Assembly: GCF_014066305.1 (NCBI RefSeq)
Contig: NW_023501041.1
Span: 1,178,001 to 1,242,000, forward strand
Source of the DNA: Letharia columbiana
Taxonomy: Eukaryota; Ascomycota; Lecanoromycetes; Lecanorales; Parmeliaceae
Direction of reading: 5' to 3'
Length of the DNA: 64,000 nucleotides
The notes under the pieces were generated by a model that was not told where the DNA came from, searched no databases, and saw nothing but the letters and a program-made list of their open reading frames with translations. This document shows, one piece after another, positions 4,591-60,990 of the stretch; position 1 is the first letter of the stretch; each line of letters opens with the position of its first letter. A program made the position numbers and the translations under genes.

Positions 4591-4780
4591 TAACGGGGTG
4601 ATTATTACGATAGGCCTATATAAATTAACGGTCTATATAGCGATTCGGGGGTTTTCTACTTAGACTCTAAGGGAGGGGTATATCGTAATAAGCTTGCGAT
4701 ATAATTAGTCCCCGAAGCGAGGTACAAGTATAAGGCTGGCTATAGATATCTCGACTAGCCGTAAGTCTAAATTACTAAGA
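4591..4780. mobile_element. GC-richer island, possible solo LTR or insertion in repeat B3
   Basis: About 190 bp with clearly higher GC than its surroundings. It begins near TAACGGGGTG and ends near ATTACTAAGA. The adjoining B copy diverges from the other B copies exactly at 4780/4781, so this looks like foreign sequence joined to B. It contains a GGCTA...TAGCC hairpin around 4737-4760 and a CAAG at 4725-4728 that resembles the reverse complement of the B 3' terminus. It could therefore alternatively include the true B3 end. No TG...CA termini with a duplication could be fixed, so the solo-LTR reading is only a possibility. Confidence 0.3.
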
Positions 4781-6105
4781 CTAAGCCGTATTCTTAATAA
4801 TAATAATCTTATTACCGTTTAATTTCTTCGTAATATTCTCCGTAGTATTCTCCGTAGTATTCTCCGTAGTGTTCTTCGTAGTATTCTTTATATTTATCTA
4901 TTATAGTTTCTTCTTTTACTTCTTCTCTTATAGAGTATTAGATTAAGTAACTAGCTAAGTGACTAACTAAGTAAATAACTAAGTAACTAGTTAATAATTT
5001 AACTAAGTAAATTACTAAGCTAATAAGATAAATAGTATTAACTAAGCGACTAAGAAATATAGTTAAAATAGGGTGATAAAGAATAGATTAAGAAGGAAGA
5101 CGCGTTTTAGAAGATAGTATCGCTGGGTTAGAAGATATTATCGCTGGCTTAAGAGAAGTATATAGAGAAGAACAATAACTATAAAGCCGTTTAGGCTTTT
5201 TTTAAAAGTCTTTTAATACGTTTATAAGTAATAGTAGATAGCTATTAAGCTTACGGCCTCGATTGCTAATAGTAGCGAATTCGTTAAGAGATAGTCTAAA
5301 AGCGTTAATAGGGGCTCTAAGAGGCGAATAAAAGGGGTGTATATGCCTAAAGCGTTTAGTAACGTTTCCGCGAGGGATAGAGTAATAAAGAACGAATTAA
5401 GAAGAAAGACGCGTCTTGAAAGATAGTATCGCTAGGTTAAAAGATATTATCGCTGACTTAAGAGGAGTATATAGAGGAGAACGATAACTGTAAATCCGTT
5501 CGAACTCTTTTTAAAGATCTTCTAACGCGTTTATAAATAGTAGTAGATAGCTATTAAGCTTACGGCCTCGATTATTAATAATAGCGAATTTATTAAGAGG
5601 TAGTCTAGGGGCGTTAATAGAGGCTCTAAGAGGCGAGTAAAATAGATATATATATCTAAAGCGTTTAGTAACGTTTCCGCGAGGGATATCGAGAATAATT
5701 ATATTTATATTAGTAAATTAATAGAATAGTAGAAGAAGAATAGTTACACAAACAGGTGGAAGGATTATTATTTAATCTCGAACGTATCTAGTATAATTAC
5801 TATATTTAAATATTAATTTAATTCACTAATAGTAGACTAAACTTTATTATTTTTATAGCGTTAGAAAGCGTAAAGCGAGCTTTATAATTTAAGAAATTAT
5901 AAAGTAATTATATCTATCGTAAGCTAAGTATCTTAAAGTATAAGACTTTTATATATAAATTTTTAATAAGAAGACGTAAGAGGATTATCGAGCTAATTTA
6001 GTTAATCTAACTAAAGAGCGTAGTAACTCTAAATTAATAATTAACTATATATATAAATTTAAGATTTTCTAGTTTAGCTCTATCTTATTCTTTTATATAT
6101 ACTAA
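4781..6105 (-). mobile_element. Helitron-like repeat B, copy 3 (minus strand, RIP-affected)
   Basis: Reverse-orientation copy of the repeat seen at 9453-11886 and 57550-59689. The 5' terminus, read on the minus strand, is TTAGTATATATAAAAG at 6105, preceded by A. The order of blocks is the same as in the other copies: an AACGCGTT-type block, a duplicated block of about 300 bp (5100-5400 and 5400-5700), and the repeat-rich 3' part. The 3' end is uncertain: B homology stops at about 4781, but a CTTG-like end is also present at 4725. It shares the Copia-C junction at its 5' side. It carries no transposase or helicase frame, so it is non-autonomous. Confidence 0.55.
4829..4888. repeat. 12-bp minisatellite, 5 units
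   Basis: Five consecutive 12-bp units of the form CGTAGTATTCTC with single-base variants. On the minus strand they would read as Glu-Tyr-Tyr-Gly-type tetrapeptides. The array lies inside B3 at the position where B1 has its GGAGAACACTGCGGAGAA block, so it is a local expansion of that cassette. Confidence 0.8.
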
Positions 6106-9452: not shown

Positions 9453-11886
9453 TTAGTATATATAATAGAATAAGATAGAGCTAAGCTTGAAAATCTTAAA
9501 TTTATATATATAGCTAATTATTAATTCGAGTTCTATACGCTTTTTAATTAAACCGACTAAGTTAGCCCGATAGCTCTCTCGTATCTCTCTTATTAAAAAT
9601 TTATATATAGAAGTTTTATACTTTAAAGTACTTAGCTTACGATATATATAGTTACTTTATAATTCCTCAAATTATAAAGCTCGCTTTACGCTTTCTAACG
9701 CTATAAAAATTATAAAGTTTAATCTACTATTAATAAATTAAATAAATATTTAAATATAATAATTATAGTAGTTATATTAGACGCGTTCGAAATCGAATAA
9801 TAATTCTTCTATCTATTTGTTATTCTTTTACTATTCTATTAATTCTATTAATTCTATTAATTCTATTAATTTCATTAATATAAATATAATCGTCTTCGAT
9901 ACCCCTCGCTTAAAGGTTACTTAATATCTTAGATATATATATCTCTTTTACTCGCCTCTTAGAGCCCCTATTAACGCCCTTAAATTATCTCTTAACGAAT
10001 TCGCTATTATTAATAATCGAGGCCGTAAGCGAATCTAATAGTTATTTACTACTATTTATAAACGCGTTAGAAGATCTTTAAAAAGAGCTCGAACGGATTT
10101 ATAGTTATCGTTTTTTTCTATATACTCCTCTTAAGTTAGCGATGGTGTCTTCTAATTTAGCGATACTACCTCTTAAAACGCGTCTTTCTTCTCTACCCGT
10201 TCTTTATTACTCTCTTTTAAAGCCTCTTAACGCGTATTAGATTCTAAATATCGTTCTTAGACTATCTCTCGACGAATTTATTACTATTAATAATCGAGGC
10301 CGTAAGCGAGCTTAATAGCTATCTACTACTACTTATAAACGCGTTAAGAAATTCTTAAAAAGAGCTCTTACTCAGCTAGTTACTTAGTCTAATATTCTAT
10401 AAGAGAAGAAGTAAGAGAAGAAACTATAATAGATAAATGCGGAGAATACTACGAAGAATATTACGAAGAAACTAAGCGGTAATAAGACTCTTAGCATTAA
10501 GAATACGACTTAACTCTTTAAGATCTCACGTTATATACTCTCTACGATTTCATATTAAATTATTACTTAGTAAGCGGAGAATATTACTATAACTTAGTCT
10601 ATTATCTCTACTATATTAAGAAGTAAGAGAAGAATCTATAATAGACGAATACGAAGAATATTACGAAGAATATTACGAAGATAGTTATCAGTAATAGTAA
10701 TATAATAAACTTACTCTTTACGATCTTATATTAATTTACTTAGTTAGTATAAGAGAAGTTAATATAGTAGACGAATACGAAGAATACTACGAAGAAACTA
10801 AGTAATAATAAGATTATTATCATTAAAAATACGACTTAGCTCTCTAAGATCTTATCTTATATTAGTTATTTACTTAGTTAGTTACTTAGCTAGTTACTTA
10901 ATCTAATACTCTCTCTATAAGAGAAGAAGTAAGAGAAGAAACTATAATAGATAAATGCGAAGAATACTATTAAGAAATTAAGCGATAATAAGACTATTAT
11001 CGTTAAGAATATAACTTAGCTCTTTAAGATTTTACGTTATATTAATTATTTACTTAGTTAGCTACTTAGCTAGCTACTTAATTTAATACTCTATAAGAGA
11101 AGAAGTAAGAGAAGAAACTATAATAGGTAAATGCGGAGAATATTATAAAGAAATTAAGCGGTAATAAGATTATTATTATTAAGAACACGGCTTAGCTCTC
11201 TAAGATCCCACGTTATATTAGTTATTTACTTAGTTAATTACTTAGCTAGTTACTTAATCTAATACTCTATAAGAGAAGAAGTAAGAGAAGAAACTATAAT
11301 AGGTAAATATAGAGAATACTACGGAGAAATTAAGCGGTAATAAGGTTATTATCGTTAAAAACACGGCTTAGCTCTTTAAGATCCCACGTTATATACTCTC
11401 TACGATTCTATATTAAATTATTACTTAGTAAGCGGAGAATACTACTATAACTTAACCTACGATTATAGTTAATTAGGCCTCTATAGAAGAAATATTAGAC
11501 GATATATATTTAAACGAATTAAAATCGTTCGATATTTACAGCTATTTCATTATTCGAAAGATTTTACTACGATAGAAGATAATGTGGAATTCACACCACT
11601 AATTAATATGTTATCTCTATTTCTTTCCGATATTTCGATACTTCTTACTATAAGAATATGGCCTTTCTCTATTTTTTATAGATAATTATTACGAATTAAT
11701 TCTTTACACTTAATACACCTTCCTAATTAGGCCTTAGCGCGCCTCTCTTCGTATATATATATCTATATATAGGTTAAAAACGTATAGCAAGCGATTAGAG
11801 TTCGATTTAACTTAGGGCTAGGGCTAAAATTCGATTTAACTTAGAAAAATCCAACTTTATAAATTTAATTCATAAGCCTTTACTTG
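9453..11886 (+). mobile_element. Helitron-like repeat B, copy 2 (RIP-affected)
   Basis: A 2434-bp insertion beginning TTAGTATATATA and ending TTTACTTG. Joining its flanks (TAGATAA before, TAATACTTAATATC after) regenerates exactly the uninterrupted sequence of the homologous Copia copy near 20.80-20.83 kb. There is therefore no target-site duplication, and the insertion lies between A and T. Eleven bases before the 3' end is a near-perfect palindrome around 11862-11880 (TTATAAATT/AATTCATAA, one mismatch of RIP type). TC...CTRR-like ends, a subterminal hairpin and A/T insertion are Helitron hallmarks; the terminal CTTG departs from canonical CTRR. Internal blocks repeat in tandem (9900-10120 and 10200-10370; several copies of the AAGAGAAGAA...AAGCGGTAATAAG unit between 10400 and 11350). 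Confidence 0.65.
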
Positions 11887-19198: not shown

Positions 19199-22100
19199 GG
19201 TTGTCGTAATGTACTTATAGTGCGAGAATTAATAAAATAACTCCTCTAAAGTAGGTGATAATAGGCGATTTTTTTAAATCTAGGTATAGATATAGTAGAA
19301 TAGCTCTTTTATAAAATAAGATTATATTAAGATAGTAGTAAGATTAGCGATTATTTAAGAGATAAATAAATATAGCTTTTATCTCGAGAGCGTTTTAAAA
19401 AGTAATAAATTTATTTAAGTAAAGGGCCTTAATAAGCCTATCAGCCATTTATTTATTAGTAAGAATATATCGTATATTTATAGTATTATTATTAATCTTT
19501 TCTTATATGAAATAGTAGACAATATTAATATACTTAATATAAGTATAAAATTAAGCGTTTTTTGCGAAGGATAATTACGTTTTAATTATTATCGAAAATA
19601 ATAATAACTTTAAAGTTTATATTATTAAGACGAAGAAGTTAATTAAATAAGTTTTTTAGCTAGATTACTTTCTTAATAGCTTATATTTAATTAATATACT
19701 TTATTTTATAAATAAATAATATTATAATAACTTAACGCTTAGATAATTAACTAATTATATCGCTTCTTATATTAAAGAGATAATTAGATATAGATCTTCG
19801 GGTTATATTATTAATTTAATTAGAATTAATATAATTAATAAGCTCTTAAAAAAAGCCTTTATATACGAGTTTATAGTATACTATATCTCTTAAATATCGA
19901 AAGATTTAAATAATTATATTTTAATATACTAAAGTTAAATTAGCTAAATAGCGATTTATTAATAATATCGCGTAAATAATATTAGAATAAATATCGAGTA
20001 TAATATATATAAGAGATTTCACCGCGAATTAATAGTTCTTTTATAATTTTCTTAAAGCGATATAGCTCTTTTTAATAAAAGTTAGTTTATAACTAATCTC
20101 GAGAGATATTAATATCGAGATAAGATTTTAATAATTAAAATAATTTAAGAATTAAGTAATATAAGCCTCTTATTTTAGACGAAGAATATCGCTATAACGA
20201 TTTTTTTTAATAGTTATATTTAAGTAATAGATATATAATTCTAAATTTAATATATAAAACTTCGTATTAAGTCCCTTCTTAATTCGCTAAATTTCGACTT
20301 TATTAAAATTAATAATTAAGATATTATCGATATAGAGCGCTATAATAATACTCTCTTTAAGATTTATAAATACGCTATTATTTAATTTAATAGAGAGAAA
20401 ACTTAGCTTCTTTATATATTTCGAGAAATATTAATATTAGACTTAAGAGAATTATTTTAAATTATAAAATATCTTATTTAGTTTATAAATCTTAATATTA
20501 TCTTTATTAAAATTATCAAATTAATATATATAAATCTCTTTTTTTATATTATTATATAAAAAGATAATTTTAATATTTATTTACTTTAGATTTTAATTTA
20601 GAATAATTATAAATATAAAGATTATTTTATAATTTATAGACTTTATTATTAACGCGAAAGTATTATAATAATTATAACTCTTCTATTATTTAAATTTTTA
20701 AATAATTTAATATATCTTATAGCGAATAATTTTTTTATTAAAATCTTATTTTAAGATATAAATTTATTTATTTTTTAGAATATAAGCTTTAAAAAACGCC
20801 TAAATAAGATATTAAGTATTATTATCTATAAGAGATTTATATTTATTCTTTATAAAAAGTTTTTAATTTATTTAAAATAGCTAATTAGATATAGCTTACT
20901 TATAAATAATAAACTTAAAAATATTTAATTTATTAATATAATTTATAAGTAAGATAAATATTATAAAGATCTTCGAAAGAGAGTTAGAGAATAAATCTTA
21001 TAGATTTAAAATTATAAGATTTAAATAATTATATAATATTCTTTAAATAGTATTTAACTTATAATCTTCGCGAATAGTTTATATAATTTTAATAATAATA
21101 AATAATAAATTAAGTCTAAGAATATTAAATTTAAATTTAAGGAAATTTCTTATATAAATAATATAGATTAAATTATTAATATAGATATAAATATAATATT
21201 TAATTAAGTAAATCGAGTAGTTTATATTAGAGATATTTAAATTAAGAGCTTTCGCGTAATTAATTAAATTCGCTATATTAAAGACTCTTATATAGATCTT
21301 CGCGAAGGCGCTTTCTTATTAATTAATTAGAGAAAATTTAATCTTAATTTTATAAATATTAAAGATCTTAAAGTTATTAAAGATTTAATAGCTATTTTAA
21401 TTATAAATATAATATCTTCTAATACTTCTTTAAATTTAATATCTTTTAAAATATTAATAATACATTATTTATTTAATATCGCTTTTATAGCGAATATTAA
21501 TATTATTAAATATTATTACTTATTTAAAAACTTATAAATCTTAATTTCTTCTTTTAAATTTATAATTAGAGGTTATTTTTTTATAAAGTATACGCTATTA
21601 GCGCGAATAATTATCTTCTTAATAAGATTATATAATTAAAAGATATACTCCCTCTTATATCTTAATAATATATACTTTTTACTTTAATTTATAAATTTCT
21701 TTTAATTTTATTTTATTATATAAATAATAAAATTAATTATATATAAATAAAAAAGAATAAACTTTTATTAATAGAAGATCTTAAAAGAAATTATAATAAT
21801 TTTAATATTAGATAATTATATTATTAAATAATTAATAATAATAATAATTTTAAATTAAAAGAATTTATTAAGATTAAAGCTTAATAGAATAAAATATATC
21901 TTATATAATAGAGTTTATTTAAAATACTTAATTATATTATTTATCTAGAAGTTATTAAGAATAATAAATTTTTATTTAATACTCGATAGAGCGAGATAAT
22001 TAAGAAAGACTTTAAATATATACTTATTCTTATTATCGAGGCGAATATAAGAGATTTTATAATTATATAATTTAAGATAAATCTTAAATTATAAAAATAT

Positions 22101-25849: not shown

Positions 25850-26270
25850 AGAGTTTAATATTTAATTTTTAAATATAAATTTTTAAAGTAATTAAAATTT
25901 AAAGTTTAAGTTAAAATTAAAATTAAAGTAAAAAGTTTAAAGTTTTAAAGTTTAGTTATAAAGTAGTTTTAAGTTAAATTAAAGTTTAAAGTTTAAAGTT
26001 AATTAGTTTAAGTTTAAAGTAATTAAAGTAAAGTTTAATTAATAGTTAAAGTAAGTTTAGGTTAAATAATTAAAGTAAGTTTAAGCTAATAGTAATTAAA
26101 GTAAGTTAAAAAGTAAAGTTAAAAAGTTAAATAATTAAAGTAAGTTAAATAATTAAAGTAAATTTAATATTAGATAATTAAAATAAAGTTCGAATTAAAT
26201 AGTTAAAGTAAATTTAGCATTAAATAATTAAAGTAAAGTTAAAGTAAGTTTAGCGCCGAATAATAAAAGT
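25850..26270. repeat. Degenerate tandem array in the Copia A 3' UTR
   Basis: Runs of AAAGTAAAGTTTAA/AATTAAAGTAAGTTTA-type units of roughly 25-30 bp. The equivalent arrays in other copies are at 57080-57470 (reverse orientation) and, much shorter and less mutated, at about 17930-18010. It is therefore a structural part of this Copia family's 3' UTR that varies in length between copies. Confidence 0.6.
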
Positions 26271-29200
26271 AAAAAATCGAAATCTAAAAACGACTATATT
26301 AAACCCCAAATTCCACTTTTTATCAAAAAACGGTTTTTCGAAAATTTTATTTTTAGGCCATCTAATATATATTAAAAATCGATCGATTTAAGACCGAAGG
26401 ATATTCGTAGAAATAACTAAATAAAATAATTAAAAGAAATTCTTTATTCTATATATTACGATCGGCTATAAGGCTTTTATAAGGTTATTTTAGATATCTA
26501 ATTTTTAGTAATAGTAGCTAATAGTAATAGTAATATAGATAAGAGTATTTTAAAAGAGCTTTAAAGATTTAATAGCGATAGCGGTAATAGCGCTAAAGAA
26601 ATAGCTATTTCGATATAAAATAGCGAGTTTATAGAGTATTAAGTCTAAGGCTCGACGGGCGGTTTAAATAAATTATTTAAACTACGAAGATTAATAAAAT
26701 AATTAATAAAATAGCTTCTCTAAATAAATAATACTATAAACGATATTTTAGTCTAATTAATATATAAAACTTCTTAAATTTATTCTTAAATAGTACTTTA
26801 ATAAGTTTATCGACTATCTATTATTTAATAGAAATATATTTAAAAGTAATAATATTAGTAATAACTTATTTTTATATATAATAATATTAAATATCAATAT
26901 ACTTAATATATATATAAAATTAAGAATTTTTAATAAGAACTATAATACTTTAATTATTATAGTAGATAATAATAGTCTATATATACTTAGCGCTAAAATT
27001 AAATTAATTAAAAAGTTTATATAATTAAATTATCTTTTTAATAGCTTATATCTAATTAATATATTTAATCTTATAAAAGAATAGCGTTATAATAGACTAT
27101 TATTTCGATAATTAATTAATAATAATATTATTTATATTAAAGATATAATTAGAGATAAAATATTAAGTATTTTAATTATTTATTTAGTTCGCGTTTATAT
27201 AGCTAGTAAATAATTTTAGATCTCCTCTAAATATTAATTATTAGTTTTTAATATTATTTAAATATCAAAAGATACGCTTAATAGCCTTTTAATAGAATTT
27301 ATTTAAATTTAAAATATATCTAGAGATTATTAAAATAGCGAATATAATATTAAATTAAATATCTAATATTATATATATAAATAATTTTATAATTAATTAA
27401 TAGATATAGCGAGATTAATTAATAGAGATAAAATTATCTTTAATAATATAAAATTTATTATTATTAATAGAAGTAAGCGATAGCGTAAAGCTTAATATAT
27501 TATATTTCTTTAGAAATTTCTTAATATAATCTTTTTAGCTAAGGCGTAGAATTCGATTAATATAATTTTTAATAATTATTATATTAAGATAATAGATATA
27601 AGATTTTAAATTAATTATTTTAAACTTCTTATTAAGCTTATTCTTAATATTTTATATTTTAATTTTATTAAAATTTATAAATAGAATATTATTTATATAA
27701 ATAGCGATAATAATAATATTATTAATAAATATAGAGAGATTAATAGTAATAGATTTAAAACTTAATTTCTTTAAATAGATTATAAGAATATTATATTAAA
27801 CTTTAGAGAATTACTTTAAATCGTAAAATACCTTAATAAGCTTATATATCTTATTCTTTTAATCTTTAATCTTAAAGCTAGTAAGTTAAATAATATAAAT
27901 TATCTTCTTAATATCGTTATATAGAAAGATAATTTTAATATTTATTTATTTAAGCTTTTAATTTAAGATAATTATTAATATAAAGATTACTTTATAATTT
28001 ATAAACTTAATAATAAAAGCGAAGATTTTATTAAAGTTAATTTCTTTTTATTATTTAAAATCGCGAATAATTTAGCGAGCTTTATATTATATAATCTTCT
28101 TTATAAGATTACGCTTAAGCTTATAAATCTATTAATCTTTTAAAATATATATATTTAATAAAAGATTTATTAGAGTTTAAGTCTTATTAATAATAAGCGA
28201 GTTAACTTCTTTTTTTATAATAATTTTCTAATATATCTTATAATAAGAGTTTAATATAATCTTTTTATAGATTTAAGATTTATAGAATTTAAAAGAAAAG
28301 GCTTTTATTAATAGCGCTAGAGGATTTAAAGAAAATTCTTTATATACTCTTAAGATATCGAATAAATAATTTATCGTTAAAATTAAGTTATAATTACTTA
28401 TAAAGCGAGTAATAAATTTAAAAGACGTCGTTATAGAGGCTATAGAGAGAGTTTTATTACTAAATATATTAGATAATTACTCTTTTAAAGACTTTAAGTT
28501 AGCTAAGACTATTAATTAAGCTCTTTTAAAAATTTAAATAAAATTAAATAAGTTATTAACTTTATCTTTAACGAAAGTTACTTATCTCTTTTAGCGATTA
28601 TTCTCTAAAATTATAGATAAAGAGAGAAGATAACTTTTAAGATAATTAATAATTTTAATAAGTCGACGATTATTACGATAGACTATCATTTTAATATTAT
28701 TATATATATTCTTCTCTAAAATAAAGAATATAGACTTAAAAGAAATATTATTAAATTACTTAATATTCGAGATAATAGTAATTTTATTACTATTTAAGAG
28801 TATATAATAAAAATAATCTTAATAGTTTATAAGTTATCTCTTAATTATATAATTTTAATACTTTTTTTAATTAATAACTTTAAATATAATTTAATAAAAG
28901 TCTATTTATTTAATAATATATAGATAAGAAATATTAAAAGAGAAATTAATATAAATCTTAAAAGAAGTAATATCTTATTTAATTACGAGTTAATAATTAT
29001 ATAAATAATTTTTAATATAAATAAACTCGATTTAATACTTCTATAATAGATCGCTTTTCTTAAATATTACGCTAGTTTTACGCTAAATAATAATATCTAA
29101 TTATTTAAATTTATTATTTATTTAAAGATTTTTTAATATAATATCTTTTTAGATAATTTCTCTAAATAGATAAAAGGCTTTTATTTTATAATTCTAATAT

Positions 29201-45717: not shown

Positions 45718-48700
45718 AAGCGTATCGCTAAAATATAAGAAATAATTATTCTATAGACGAGGTTCTAGATTAATAAATTCTCGAAAAAACTTAAATTTAT
45801 TTCTATATAGGGCCTTAATAAGCTTATCGACTATCTATTTATTAATAGAAATATATTTAAGATTTATATTATCGTTAATAATTTAATCGCGTATCTAATA
45901 ATATTAAATATTAATATACTTAATACGACTATAATACTAAAAATTCTTTATTAAGATAATTACGTTTTAATTATTATCGAAGATAATAATTATTTAAAGT
46001 AATTTATTAAGATAAATTTAATTAAATAGTCTTCGAAGCTAAATAACTTTCTTTATAATTTAAATTTAATTAATATATTTAATTTTATAGATAAATAATA
46101 CGATAATAACTTATCGCTTAAAAGACTAGCTAATTACTTTATTTTCTAGATTATAAATATAATCTAAAATTAATTTATAAGTATTATAATTATTAGCTTA
46201 ATCGAAATTAATATAATTAATTAAGTTTTAAAGCGAATCTTTATAAATAAGATATTAATAAATAATTATTTTAAGATATCGAAAAATACGCTTAATAGCC
46301 GCGTAATAGACTTTAATAGAGTTTAAAGAATATTATAAGATTATCGATATAGCGAATATAATATTCGACCTTATATCGAGTATAGCGTATATAAGAGATT
46401 TAATAGCTAATTAATAAGTTTTTAGTAACTTAATAAATATTATATAACTATTCTCGACGAAAAGTAATCGCGTATTAGTTTTTATAGAAGTAAACTATAA
46501 TTTAAACTCTTATATTTTATAATATCTAAGAAATTATTTAATATAAACTAATTAATTTAAATATAATATTCGATTAATATAATTATAAATTATAATTATA
46601 TCTAAATAGTAATTATAAGAGTTTAAATCGCTTATTTTAAACTTAATATTAAGTGTATTTTTAATTCGCTAAATATTAAGCTAAGAAGGGCTAATAATAA
46701 GAATATTATTTATATAAAAAGTAATAATAATATTAATATCGAGTTTAATAAATATATTATAATTAATATTAATAGAAATAAAATTAATTTCTTATATATA
46801 GTTAATAAAGATATTATACTATATACGCGGGGATTACTTTAAATTATAGAGTATCTTATTAAACTTATAAACTCGTCGAGAGTACTTCTCTAAAATAAAA
46901 CTAGTAGACTATTTTATATAGATTTCCTCTTTAATATTTCTATAGAGAAAAGCGATTTTAATATCTATTTATTCTAGATTCTAATCTTCGATAATAACTA
47001 AGATAAAGATAGTCTTATAGAATATAAACTTAATTACTAAAGCGAAGATTTTATTATAATCTAAGCCTTTATATTATTTAAAATTATATATTATCTAGCG
47101 AGCTTTATAGCGAATAACTTTATTATTAAATCTATATTTTAAAGTATAAATCTATTTATTATAAAGTATAATACGCTTATAAAGTAAGTCGATAAGAGTT
47201 TAGATATTATTCTCTTTCAGCGACTCGAATTCTTCGATTATACCGCCTTTCTATTACTTATAAAAAGAATTATTTATTATAACCTCTTTATAAATCTTTA
47301 ATTTATATAACTTTATATTTATAACTTAAATAACTATAATATAAAGTATAAGAGGATTTAAAGAGAGATTTCGAGAGATTAAGTAAGAATAATTAAGATA
47401 TAAAAATATATTATCTTATATCGTTAAGATAGACTAAGGCGTAATAATAGAAGTATCGAAGTTAAAAGGAGTTACTATAGATTTTAAAGGCCTTAGAATA
47501 AATCTAGATAACTAAATAAATTTATTTATATCTATTATATTTATAAAAAGAAAATTTCTAGCTAAGAAAGATATTATAGATCTAAGCGTATTTTTTTTTA
47601 TAGCTAGATTATTTAGCGATTAAGAAGATATTAAATTAAATAAGAGTTTATTCTTTTCTCTATCTTATATAACTTTTAATAAGTATATAATACTATTATC
47701 TAATAATAATATTTGATAAATATAATTACCGTTATAATCTATAAGAATATCTTTTTAAATATAATATTATTCTTTCTTTTATTTAATAGCTAATTTTCTT
47801 ATTATAGTGAAGCTCTTAATTCTAATATATCTAATATATACTAAATGAGATTTATAATTAATATAAGTCTTATATAGAGTAAATTTACGACCTATAATAG
47901 GGCTATAATTACGAAGATAGTTTACCGCTATTATAAGCTTTAATTAAAACTTTTAATTAATATTAATATTCTCTATAATAATATTAATAATACTAAAAAG
48001 AGTTTAATTAAATTATTTAATAACTCTATTTTATTCGAAGTTCTCTAATTAAATTAGCTTTTAAGTAATATTATAATTAATATAATAAATATTAAAATTA
48101 TAATTCTTATACTCGCCTCTATAATCGCTTTATAAATATCTAATAGTAAAATCGCTATATTCGTTATAAAGCTAAAAGCGCTTAAAGACTATAAAGATAT
48201 CGCTCTTTTATTCGATAATCTTAATCTTAAAGCGTTTATTATAATTATCTAGAAAAATAATAAAGTATTTATCTTTATCGAAGTCACGCGGGATAATAAA
48301 ATTATAGATATCAGTGTAAATTAAATTATTTAATCTTTTCTTAAGATAAATATAAGATTTATATAATATATTCTTCGCTTTTTTAATAGTATATAAAGCG
48401 TAAAACTTCGTTTTTATAACTTTTTTAATAAGGTCTATACCCTTAAATAACCCGGCGAGCTTTTAAATATTTTAATATCTTAAATAATTTATATAAGTAT
48501 ATTAAAGATTAAGAATTTCTTCGTTAATTTTATAAGGCGTGCCGTCGAAGTCGAAATTAGAGTCAAAGATATCAGACTTAGTGAAGACAAAAATATCTCT
48601 ATTTACCGAATTAGTCTTCTTTTTATATTTTAAAATAACCTAAAGTATAGCGAACTTTATATTATACTATTTAGATATTAATATAAATATTAATTCGACT

Positions 48701-55113: not shown

Positions 55114-57549
55114 AATATATTAAGAAATTATTATAAAAAAAGAAGTTAACTCGCTTATTATTAATAAGACTTAAACTCTAATAAATCTTTTATTAAATAT
55201 ATATATTTTAAGAGATTAATAGATTTATAAGCTTAAGTGTAATTTTATAAAAAAGATTATATAATATAAAGCTCGCTAAATTATTCGCGACTTTAAATAA
55301 TAAGAAGAAATTAACTTTAATAAAATCTTTATTTCTATTATTAAGTTTATAAATTATAAAATAATCTTTATATTAATAATTATCTTAAATTAAGAACTTA
55401 AATAAATAAATAAATAAATATTAAAATTATCTTTTTATATAGCGATATTAAAAAGATAATATATATTATTTAATTTATTAACTTTAAGATTAAAGATTAA
55501 AAGAATAAGATATATAAGTTTATTAAGATACTTTATAATTTAAAGTAATTCTCTAAAATTTAATATAATACTTTTATAATCTATTTAAAAAAATTAGGTT
55601 TTAAATCTTTTATATTATTATTATTATCGCTATTTATATAAATAATATTCTACTCGCGAGTTTTAATAAAATCGAAATATAAAATATTAAGAATAAGCTT
55701 AATAAGAAGTTCGAAATAATTAATTTAAAATTTTATATCTATTATTTTAATATAATAATTATTAAAGATTATATTAATTAAATTCTACGTCTTAGCTAAA
55801 AAGGCTATATTAAGAAATTTCTAAAAAAATATAATATATTAAACTTTACGCTATCGCTTACTCTTATTAATAATAATAAATTCTATATTATTAAAGATAA
55901 TTTTATTTTTATTAATTAATCTCGCTATATCTATTAATTAATTATAAAATTACTTATATATATAATATTAAGTACTTAATTTAATATTATATTTACTATT
56001 TTAATAATCTCTAAATATATTTTAAATCTTAATAAATTTTATTAAAAGATTATTAAGCGTATTTTTTAATATCTAAATAATAAATATTAAGAACTAATAA
56101 TTAATATTTAAAAAAGATTTAAAATTATTTATTAGTTATATAGACGCGAATTAGATAAATAATTAAAATATTTAATATTTTATTTCTAATTATATCTTTA
56201 ATATAAATAATATTATTATTAATTAATTATTAAAATAATAATTTATTATAGCGCTATTCTTTTATAAAATTAAATATATTAATTAGATATAAATTATTAA
56301 GAAGATAATTTAATTATATAAATTTCTTAATTAATTTAATTTTAACACTAAATATATATAGACTATTATTATTTATTATAATTAGATAATTAAAATATTA
56401 TAACTTTTATTAAAAAAAATTAATTTTATATATATATTAAGTATATTAATATTTAATATTATTATATATAAAAATAAGTTATTATTAATAATATTATTTT
56501 TAAATATATCTTTATCGAATAATAGATAGCTAATAAACTTATTAAGATATTATTTAAAAATAAATTTAAGAAATTTTATATATTAATTAAATTAAAATAT
56601 CGTTTATAATATTACTTATTTAAAGAAATTAACTCTAACTTTAAAAGAGCGATTTTATTAGTTTTTATAATTTAAGTAATTTATTTAAATCGCTCGTTAA
56701 GCCTTAGATTTAATACTTTATAAACTCGCTATTTTATATTAAAATAGCTATTTCTTTAGCGCTATTACTACTATTACTATTAAATCTTTAAAACTCTTTT
56801 AAAATATTTTTATTTATACTATTATTATTATTAGCTATTATTATTAAAGAATTAAATATCTAGAATAACTTTATAAAAGTCTTATAGTCGATTATAATAT
56901 ATAAAATAAAAAATTTCTTCTAATTATTTTATTTAATTATCTTTATAAATATTCTTTAATCTCGAATTAATTAATTTTTAGTATATATTAGATAATCTAA
57001 AAATAAAATTTTCGAAAAACCGCTTTTTAATAAAAAGTAGAATTTAGAATTTAATATAGTCGTTTTTAGATTTCGACTTTTTACTTTAGCTATTTAATAC
57101 TAAACTTACTTTAACTATCTAACTCTAACTTCACTTTAATTATCTAATATTAAATTTACTTTAATTATTTAGCTCGAACTTTATTTTAATTATTTAATAT
57201 TAAACTTATATTAGCTATTTAACTCGAACTTTATTTTAATTATTTAATACTAAATTTATTTTAATTATTTAATATTAAATTTACTTTAATTATTTAGCTT
57301 AAACTTTACTTTAATTATTTAATATTAAATTTACTTTAACTATTTAGTTTCAACTTTACTTTAATTACTTAATATTAAAACTTACTTTAATTATCTAATT
57401 TAAATTTTATTTTAATTACTTAATATAAACTTTACTTTAATTATCTAATATTAAACTCTAGCGAAAGTTAATTAAATTATTTTTATCTTATTTATTCGAT
57501 TTTAATACCGTTAATATTAAATTTTATATTTATTAAATTTCGCGTATAA
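55114..57549 (+). mobile_element. Copia retrotransposon remnant A4 (plus strand, RT to 3' UTR)
   Basis: 5'-truncated in the pol region, homologous to the reverse complement of A2 from about 28.23 kb down. The Copia-type reverse transcriptase (RVT_2) is still legible despite RIP near 55265-55440: YKAR*IIRDFK, then EEINFNKIF, then a TAFLYGD-like segment. The YVDD catalytic box reads YINN at about 55645. A GYTDADWA-type RNase H motif reads SYIDAN* near 56135, and the ADGLTKPL-type C-terminus lies near 56530. The 3' UTR carries the shared AAAAAGCGG block (57017) and the tandem array at 57080-57470. It is interrupted at 57549 by repeat B1 and finishes at 59690-59861. Confidence 0.75.
57080..57470. 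repeat. Tandem array in the A4 3' UTR (about 30 bp unit)
   Basis: A dozen or so degenerate units of the form TTTACTTTAATTATTTAATATTAAA, alternating with CTCGAACTT- and CTAACTT-containing variants. It is the counterpart of 25850-26270. Confidence 0.7.
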
Positions 57550-57969
57550 TCAGTATATATAAAAGAATAAGGTAGGGCTGAACTAGAAAACCTTGAATTT
57601 GTATGTGCAGCCAATCATCAATTCAGGGTCACTACGCCCTTTGGTTAGACCGGCTGAGTCAGCCCGGTAGCCCTCCCGCGCTTTCTCATCAAAAATTTGT
57701 ATGTAGAAGTCTTACACTTTAAGGTACTCAGCTTGCGATAGATATAGTTACTTCATAATTCCTCAAATTGTAGAGCTCGCTTTGCGCTTTCTAACGCTGT
57801 AAAAATAATGAAGTTTGGCCTACTATTGGTGGATTAAATTGACATTCAAATATGATAATCACACCAGACGCGTCCGGGATCGGATAATAATCCTTCCACC
57901 TGTTTGTTTGTGTAACTATTCTTCTTTCACCATTCTACCAATTTACTAATATGAACATAATCATCCTCG

Positions 57970-58480
57970 ATACCCCTCGCGGAAACGTTACTAAACGCTT
58001 CAGGCACGTACACCCCTTTTGCTCGCCTCTTAGAGCCCCTACTGACGCCCCCAGGCCACCCCTCGGCGAATCCGCTACTGCTGGCAATCGAGGCCGCAAG
58101 CTAACAGCTACCTACTACTGCTCATAAACGCGTTAGAAAACCCTCAAAAAGAGCCCGAACGGATTCACAGCCATCGTTCTCCCCTATATACTCCTCTTAA
58201 GTTAGCGGTAATACCTTCCAACCTAGCGATATTACCTTCTAAGACGCGTCTTTCTTTTTAATCCGTTCTTTATCACCCTATCCTCGCGGAAACGTTACTA
58301 AACGCTTCAGGCGTACCCCTTTTACCCGCCTCTTAGGCCCCTACTAACGCCCCCAGGCCCCCTCGGCGAATCCGCTACTGTTGGCAATCTACCTACTACT
58401 GCTCATAAACGCGTTAGAAAACCCTCAAAAGAGCCCGAACGGATTCACAGCCATCGTCCTCCCCTACATACTCGACCAGC
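57970..58480. repeat. Direct duplication inside B1 (about 307 bp period)
   Basis: The block beginning CCTCGCGGAAACGTTACTAA occurs at about 57975 and about 58283, both times followed by the same order of motifs up to GCCCGAACGGATTCACAGCC. The second copy has short internal deletions. B2 and B3 have the same duplication, so it predates their spread. Confidence 0.75.
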
Positions 58481-58499
58481 CGCTCAATCAACACTACCT

Positions 58500-58590
58500 A
58501 CCCTATCAGCTCAGTAATCCACTCAATTAGATCGTCAGCCAGTCACTCAGTCATCCACTCAGTCAGCCACTCAGCTAATCACTAAGTCTG
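58500..58590. repeat. Short tandem repeat CCACTCAGTCAG in B1
   Basis: Degenerate 12-bp units (AGTCACTCAGTCAT, CCACTCAGTCAG, CCACTCAGCTAA). The homologous RIP-altered stretch in B3 is at 4935-5050. Confidence 0.65.
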
Positions 58591-58616
58591 ATACTCTATA
58601 AGAGGAGGGCAAGAGG

Positions 58617-59280
58617 AGGAACTACAACAGGCAAATGCGGAGAACACTGCGGAGAAACCAAGCGGCAACAAGGCCACCATCGTCAAGAACACGGCTCAGC
58701 TCTCCAAGATCCCACGTCATATCAGTCATCCACTCAGTCTGATACTCTACAAGAGAAGGAGCAAGAGGAGGAACTACAACAGGCAAATGCGGAGAACACT
58801 GCGGAGAAACCAAGCGGCAACAAGGCCCCCAGCACCAAGAACACGGCTCAGCTCTCCAAGATCCCACGTCATATGCTCTCCACGGTTCCACATCAAATCA
58901 TCACTCAGCAAGCGGAGAACACCACTGCAACTTAGCCTGTCATCCCCACTGCATTAAGGAGTAAGAGGAGGAACTACAACAGGCAAATGCGGAGAACACT
59001 GCGGAGAAACCAAGCGGCAACAAGGCCCCCAGCACCAAGAACACGGCTCAGCTCTCCAAGATCCCACGTCATATACTCTCCACGGTTCCACATCAAATCA
59101 TCACTCAGCAAGCGGAGAACACCACTGCAACTTAGCCTGTCATCCCCACTACATTAAGGAGTAAGAGGAGGAACTACAACAGGCAAATGCGGAGAACACT
59201 GCGGAGAAACCAAGCGGCAACAAGGCCACCATCGTCAAGCACACGGCTCAGCTCTCCAAGATCCCACGTCATATGCTCTC
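58617..59280. repeat. Cassette array in B1 (units of about 160-196 bp)
   Basis: Four starts of the same cassette at about 58617, 58773, 58969 and 59165; the last two intervals are 196 bp. Each unit holds AACTACAACAGGCAAATGCGGAG, AAACCAAGCGGCAACAAGG and CAGCTCTCCAAGATCCCACG. The last units are almost identical, implying recent unequal exchange or replication slippage. Confidence 0.8.
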
Positions 59281-59689
59281 CAATGCATATTTGAACGAAT
59301 TGAAACCGTCCGATGTCTATAGCTATTTTATTATTCGAAAAATTTCACTGCGGCGGGAGATATTATAGGATTCACACCACTAATTAGCACGTTGTCTCCA
59401 TTTCTTTCCGGTATTTCGATACTTCTTGCCATAAGAATATGGCCTTTTCTTTTTTTATGGGCAATTATTACGGATCAATCCTCCACACTCAATACACCTT
59501 CCTAATTAGGCCTTAGGCGCCTCTCTCCGCACATATATGCCTGTATATCACATAGATCAAATCAATTTTATCGTGGTGAAGTAGGTCAAAACGCATGCAA
59601 GCGATTGAGTTCGATTTAACTTAGGGCTGGGCTAAAATTCGATTTGACATAGAAAATCCAACCCATGAATTTAATTATGCCTTTACTTG

Positions 59690-59861
59690 AAGAATATATA
59701 TAAAGAGAAGTATTAAAATTCGAATTATATAACTCTTAACGTTTTAGTAATTATGTGATATAGTTATATAATACGTCTTAGTATATTTATATCTAATCGC
59801 TCTTTTCTTTTATAGAACTCTCTAGTTAATATAACTAAGTATTCTATCTTATATTTTAATA
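59690..59861 (+). repeat. End of A4 with its 3' LTR (59711-59861)
   Basis: 59690-59710 completes the A4 3' UTR interrupted by B1. 59711-59861 is a 151-bp RIP-altered copy of the A LTR in reverse orientation relative to 32706-32856, starting TATTAAAATTCG and ending ATATTTTAATA. Its orientation fits the plus-strand A4 element. Confidence 0.7.
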
Positions 59862-60504: not shown

Positions 60505-60610
60505 TTAATATATATAAAAGAATAAGATAGAGCTAAATTAGAAAATCTTAAATTTATATATATAGTTAATTATAAATTTATTAGATTTATACTTTTTAAT
60601 TAGATATTAT
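60505..60610 (+). mobile_element. Helitron-like repeat B, copy 4 (5' fragment)
   Basis: Begins TTAATATATATAAAAGAATAAG after TATAA and aligns with the first roughly 105 bp of B1, with RIP-type changes. Homology is lost after about 60610. It shares the 5' terminus and the preceding A with the other copies. Confidence 0.55.
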
Positions 60611-60990
60611 AAATAAACGAATTAATATTTATAACTATTAAAAATCTCTTATTCTACTTTTAATCCTTTAATAACTTTATTATTATCTATTAAAATTTTT
60701 AGATTTTTTTTTAATTATAGAGCGTAGATTACGCTTTTAAATACTTTAAGAATTCTAAAATTTAATCTTATAATTATTAAAAGGCAAGGTACTTAAATAT
60801 CGCTTCTTAAAGATTACTTATTAAATTTACTCGATAGCTCTAATTAAAAAAAAAATTATAAATTTAATTTATAGGCATTTACTCGTTAAGTATATAACGT
60901 TAAGTATTTTCTTAATAAAAAAAGGTATCTAAGTTCTATATATTTTCTTAATAGGTAAGGGTATACAAGTTCTATAAGGTAAGGGTAGAT
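60611..60990. other. AT-rich DNA up to the compositional boundary
   Basis: No gene. At 60945-61000 a GGTAAGGGTA...AAGT(T/C)C unit occurs twice, about 28 bp apart. GC content rises sharply from about 60990. Confidence 0.6.

Follow-up and report, generated by a model that had tools for sequence, protein, structure and literature searches.

A Helitron family with CTTG, CTTA and CTCG 3' termini in the genome of Letharia columbiana

An interrupted repeat in the genome of Letharia columbiana raises the question of whether an insertion with Helitron-like features and a 3' end other than CTRR is a Helitron, and of which kind. The inserted element, designated B2, occupies positions 9453..11886 (plus strand) of the window, which is the whole stretch of 64,000 nucleotides analysed here; these boundaries, given in an earlier note, proved correct to the base. 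B2 is a RIP-mutated, non-autonomous Helitron copy of 2434 bp (TTAG...CTTG) with a GC content of 27%, inserted between A and T, which starts with TTAGTATATATAATAG and terminates with GCCTTTACTTG. The 5' terminus lies at 9453..9475 (plus strand, TTAGTATATATAATAGAATAAGA), and the 3' end (11857..11886, plus strand) comprises 19 bases of decayed palindrome, TTATAAATTTAATTCATAA, and then the terminal 11 bases, GCCTTTACTTG. An internal tandem array with a period of 176 bp is present in 3.5 copies (10774..11394, plus strand), and the longest stop-free frame is 70 codons.

When the B2 flanks were joined by script, the product aligned with the minus strand of the window at positions 21120-20737, with 86% identity across 391 bases that span the junction. 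The empty site is located at 20804..20831 (minus strand), with the insertion point between 20821 and 20822, and all 28 junction bases, read by eye, are identical to the joined flanks. The junction lies between A and T, with zero bases gained or lost and no target-site duplication. Both the restoration of an uninterrupted sequence at 20.80-20.83 kb, here read on the other strand, and the insertion between A and T without duplication, as described before, are thereby borne out. The naming of the host repeat as Copia was not: in the window the Copia reverse-transcriptase model has just two matches, 27493-28185 and 46528-47208, and neither lies at 9 or 20.8 kb. These two matches (RVT_2, Copia reverse transcriptase) are on the minus strand and are riddled with stops.

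A non-autonomous sister copy, B1 (57550..59689, plus strand, 2140 bp, 47% GC), aligns with B2 at both ends. B1 lacks the RIP signature and runs from TCAG to CTTG, as had been stated for the unmutated copy. The flanks of B1 are only 12-14% GC, in contrast to 47% within this RIP-free element, indicating either that B1 arrived later or that it was spared RIP. The longest stop-free frame of B1 (121 codons) lies within a repeat array, and internal tandem arrays with periods of 152 and 200 bp extend over 58580..59282 (plus strand). A putative remnant of a RepHel frame start (57951..58127, plus strand; ATG, 58 codons, stop) resembles, in translations compared by eye, the beginning of the first reading frame in a RepHel copy on contig C8. 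B1 1-733 aligns at 84% with the 5' part of the same C8 copy, and B1 2044-2139 aligns with its 3' end; a longer 3' match, of B1 1734-2140, involves the neighbouring copy without RepHel that lies immediately upstream on C8. The sequences of B2 and B1 are most readily explained as those of non-autonomous copies that have undergone internal deletion. As in canonical Helitrons, terminal inverted repeats were not found in B1: there are 11 inverted pairs of 9-10 nt, and none links both ends. The 3' stem of B1 is three bases short, and no clear empty site for B1 was found in the window and the retrieved loci, L016 being partly similar with an indistinct junction. A minisatellite-like repetitive stretch (57041-57537), which resembles 25968-26249, adjoins B1 on the left. 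A further family copy (4776..6105, minus strand, 5' end TTAG at 6105) and a further copy fragment (60505..60781, plus strand, 5' end TTAA) are present in the window; the family 3' end was not found in either.

The termini were then surveyed over the genome (52 Mb, 161 contigs). For the 3' end the pattern was AATTYATRRRCCTTTAC, then 14 unspecified positions closed by A or T, and for the 5' end it was A or T, five unspecified positions and TYARTATATATAANAGAATAARR. At least 953 3' ends and at least 1,329 5' ends were detected, both being lower bounds because zero mismatches were permitted, while the reversed-pattern controls gave 0 for both, and thus chance is excluded. Terminus classes were determined for the first 100 listed of each end in contig order, a non-random sample. 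Within this sample the 3' tetranucleotide was CTCG in 47, CTTA in 29, CTTG in 21 and another sequence in 3. The next base was T in all 97 ends classified as CTTG, CTTA or CTCG, and in 99 of the 100 listed overall; at B1 (57550-59690), in contrast, the following base is A. The base preceding the 5' end was A in 99 of the 100 listed, the sole exception being preceded by TACTCG, which is itself a family 3' end. Insertion between A and T without duplication, a canonical Helitron feature, is therefore observed apart from the 3' flank of B1. The listed 5' ends start with TTAG (61), TTAA (35) or TCAG (4). The TC start of canonical Helitrons is observed in low-RIP copies (B1, L010, L012 and L014-L016), and TT is found in L011 and L013, recovered in the same search as L010-L016, and in RIP-mutated copies. 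Variable termini, which would have counted against the Helitron reading, were confined to the CTTG, CTTA and CTCG alternatives at the 3' end and to RIP changes at the 5' end, the ends being otherwise constant. Within L010 1469-1504 on contig C153, a pair of oppositely oriented family 5' ends is separated by only 34 bases, with A before each.

None of the 100 listed 3' ends is CTRR, in agreement with the earlier description of CTTG as non-canonical, and this absence counts against membership of the canonical Helitrons. An origin of CTTG from CTRR by RIP was considered and rejected. RIP converts C to T and G to A, and the third-base A or G of CTRR therefore cannot become T or C; moreover, among the 15 listed copies with an unmutated CATGGG arm, 13 end with CTTG and 2 with CTTA. 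CTTA can be derived from CTTG by RIP, and it is present in low-RIP copies as well (C8, L074). All 47 listed CTCG ends are associated with arms other than CATGGG. One copy alone, L022, combines a CATAGG arm and a CTCG end with a low-RIP context, and because of it CTCG looks like a subfamily terminus rather than a product of decay.

The palindrome of 16-20 nt that canonical Helitrons carry some 11-12 bases from the 3' terminus has its counterpart in genome copies and is degraded in B1 and B2. The palindrome earlier placed 11 bases before the 3' terminus is thus perfect in some sister copies (CCATGAATTTAATTCATGG followed by GCCTTTACTTG) but damaged in both copies of the window. In single-stranded DNA folding the gain over shuffled sequences was modest for L018 (z -2.4), L058 (z -2.9) and L024 (z -1.39), and the 3' ends of B1 and B2 folded no better than shuffles (z 0.19 and 0.35), because their palindrome stems are damaged.

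Coding relatives with the same ends were identified in the genome. The Helitron_like_N profile gave 28 genome matches, 26 of them above the cut-off and at least one from another RepHel family; the family Pif1 helicase gave 76 matches, fragments counted, and the Rep core from contig C9 gave 101, some of these matches being fragmentary and one or more belonging to a different RepHel family. Stop codons are abundant in most of the Helitron_like_N, helicase and Rep matches. Two elements carry both family ends together with Helitron_like_N, Rep and helicase in this order: C3:217076-223452 (6,377 bp, TTAG...CTTG) and C44:390001-383609 (6,393 bp, TTAG...CTTA), each preceded by A and followed by T, with 47 and 37 stops, respectively, in the helicase. 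In a third, C8:846125-841586, both ends are retained and the helicase frame is open over 593 residues, but the reading frame changes in the 5' part and the catalytic part of Rep has been lost. Among the genome matches, none combined both ends with an uninterrupted RepHel frame. The autonomous Rep/helicase copy with the same ends that had been sought is thus represented by C3 and C44 as far as the ends are concerned, but their coding parts are riddled with stops. An enzyme of an LTR or TIR transposon, sought as counter-evidence, was not what the relatives with the same ends encode; they encode Rep and Pif1 helicase instead.

A family-like 3' end was detected 222-287 bases downstream of the helicase in 7 of the 10 fetched loci, with T after each, and was not found in the other 3; these ends differ at 1-4 of 20 bases, with up to 6 differences permitted and no shuffled control. 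They are CTTA in 3 cases, CTTG in 3 and TTAA in one (L060), CTCG being represented by 0. Among the seven is the C9 relative (L058, C9:117500-123500), with a helicase identity of 74%, in which the frames for Rep (420 residues) and Pif1 (588 residues; PF05970 PIF1, E 2.3e-74) are open. It has the same 3' layout with its own hairpin, CCATGAAATTTTTTCATGG, then GCCTAAACTTG followed by T. This relative lacks the N-terminal portion of Rep and has no 5' end that could be recognised, its Helitron_like_N match being short and below the cut-off. The PHAH and KYIFKYVHKG segments of the C9 Rep can be aligned with proteins of plants and Rhizophagus (41-46% identity), and in our reading of the sequence they may be the HUH and two-tyrosine motifs, respectively. 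The named organisms among the 120 listed relatives of this Rep are plants and Rhizophagus, most rows being unnamed, and no protein named Helitron2 is among the listed similarity matches. Three further observations concern RepHel loci. A 249-residue frame lies upstream on the opposite strand in L058; a second RepHel family, with a Rep about 33% identical to that of C9 and 16 protein-search matches, is present at L056 (C8:877500-886500); and long overlapping repetitive frames of the YFSYLGYRSHGD... type, probably a minisatellite, adjoin a RepHel fragment at L053 3886-6975 (C135).

Based on these data, B2 and B1 very probably belong to a Helitron family that encodes RepHel and would move by the canonical mechanism, and they are themselves non-autonomous members shortened by internal deletion. 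The Helitron reading of the earlier note is supported by the constant termini, by three empty sites between A and T and by the RepHel copies with the same ends, in which the predicted HUH/two-tyrosine Rep and the Pif1 helicase would correspond to the RepHel of canonical Helitrons. CTRR is the one canonical feature absent from the first 100 listed ends. A Helitron2 or Helentron type like the FoHeli1-5 elements of Fusarium oxysporum, with asymmetric terminal inverted repeats and insertion at a site other than between A and T, shares with the present family a fungal host, RepHel coding and self-insertion, and FoHeli1 and FoHeli2 also start with TCAG according to the account of these elements (PMC5148889). 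The same account gives asymmetric terminal inverted repeats, ATTTT or CTCCTGT ends and, for FoHeli1/2, insertion between TNAT and A (PMC5148889), whereas CTYR accounts for nearly all of the ends listed in the present genome, with insertion between A and T. Neither such repeats nor an ATTTT or CTCCTGT 3' end was observed, none of the 11 inverted pairs in B1 joining its ends, and the named organisms in the mostly unnamed list of 120 Rep relatives likewise speak against this type, which we consider highly improbable. Still less credible, to the point of being negligible, is a TIR/MITE-type DNA transposon or another non-Helitron repeat with merely Helitron-resembling ends. Short copies of 436 and 592 bp with longest stop-free frames of 52 codons do exist and count in its favour, but terminal inverted repeats were not found in B1, the three empty sites are exact and without target-site duplication, and the same ends occur on RepHel coding copies, the linkage in C3 and C44 speaking strongly against it. 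A TIR/MITE origin was accordingly rejected.

For the Helitron family the following order of events, itself conjectural as to nicking, can be proposed. Rep of an autonomous copy, with its HUH and two-tyrosine motifs, would nick the 5' TC end, and the Pif1 helicase would peel one strand off. The hairpin ending 11 bases before the 3' terminus would signal the end of the element, and a second cut would be made after CTTG (or CTCG); by analogy with Helraiser (as described in PMC4778049), the hairpin may pause the helicase and the second Rep tyrosine may cut the 3' tetranucleotide. The strand, through a presumed single-stranded or circular intermediate, would insert between A and T without target-site duplication, and non-autonomous copies would be mobilised in trans. 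This scheme draws on the termini, the duplication-free insertion between A and T and the ends common to non-autonomous and RepHel copies, and further on the HUH/two-tyrosine motifs in a relative and the hairpin in sister copies. As a tentative proposal, somewhat short of an even chance, Rep of this family may recognise CTY rather than CTR and mobilise two terminal variants in one genome. CTCG makes up 47 of the 100 listed ends, yet it is found on none of the helicase-linked ends (CTTG or CTTA in 6 of 7, TTAA in one), and in the single CTCG element that was read completely, a copy of 436 bp, no frame exceeds 52 codons.

Copies of the family are also inserted into one another. Two short copies, L072 (436 bp, CTCG) and L073 (592 bp, CTTA), each with a longest stop-free frame of 52 codons, sit within the 5' ends of other copies, and their joined flanks rebuild the family 5' end TTAGTATATATAANAGAATAAG exactly. 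Target-site duplications, which would have spoken against a Helitron, are absent from all three empty sites (B2, L072 and L073). In 21 genome junctions a family 3' end is joined to the AT located eight bases inside a 5' end, the pattern that insertion into an existing copy gives. In addition, 15 exact head-to-tail junctions, CTYR joined directly to TYAR, were found genome-wide, compared with about 0.2 expected for random AT insertion at an AT frequency of 0.12 in the examined loci, an estimate that ignores AT-rich preference. This excess would fit rolling-circle concatemers inserted whole rather than separate insertions. The pair at C3:232844 is low-RIP on both sides, contrary to the expected difference, and since the relative ages of the partners are therefore indistinguishable, it is compatible with concatemers and decides nothing. 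Against whole concatemers stand the second class of 21 junctions at an internal AT, which fits insertion into existing copies, and the junction at C8:846125, where the two joined copies are unlike, one having no RepHel near its end and the other being a RepHel copy. A similar adjacent pair in maize, with the 3' end joined directly to the next TC at a G/T junction, was judged by its authors to represent consecutive insertions (PMC2267711). Concatemers are, in our estimate, unlikely. The maize description concerns one case, as opposed to the 15 exact and 21 internal-AT junctions observed here.

Among known systems, HELPO2 of Pleurotus ostreatus, compared by description only, is similar in being fungal, in AT insertion, in a subterminal palindrome, in RepHel and in its reported 3' end, CTTG (PMC4289320). 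It differs in that its paper, in the text available, reports intact non-autonomous copies for HELPO1 only and names no CTCG (PMC4289320). The suggestion of altered termini is therefore correct insofar as CTTG departs from CTRR, but altered termini of this sort were known before, the CTTG end of HELPO2 being already in print (PMC4289320). As described for them, Helibat and Helraiser share the 5' TC, insertion between A and T, a palindrome of 19 bp situated 11 bases from the 3' end, a RepHel protein that carries HUH and two tyrosines, and head-to-tail junctions; their 3' end is CTAG, in contrast to CTTG or CTCG in the present family (PMC4778049). The same paper describes CTTG at some of the insertions obtained with Helraiser constructs from which the hairpin or the right end was missing, and remarks on CTTG for maize Helitrons (PMC4778049). 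In Mycosphaerella graminicola, CTRR is reported for two of three Helitron families (PMC4522978). No CTCG Helitron 3' end was met in a limited search of open-licence literature, in which the one paper with Helitron in its title has CTCG in a primer. The present elements would form a new Helitron family of an already known type, one that departs from the textbook in a single feature, CTRR. The putative CTCG subfamily and its possible bearing on Rep specificity would be the most novel point.

The Helitron finders HelSearch and HelitronFinder, at least, seek CTRR at the 3' end, as described in PMC4289320 and PMC2267711, and a family as large as this one could therefore be overlooked or filed as an unclassified repeat. 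With many copies, exact empty sites and two terminal variants, the family is a good natural data set on the requirements of the 3' cut by Rep, and the same copies form a data set on the frequency of Helitron self-insertion. If recognition of CTY proves true, the specificity with which a Helitron Rep cleaves the 3' end would have shifted and relaxed in nature.
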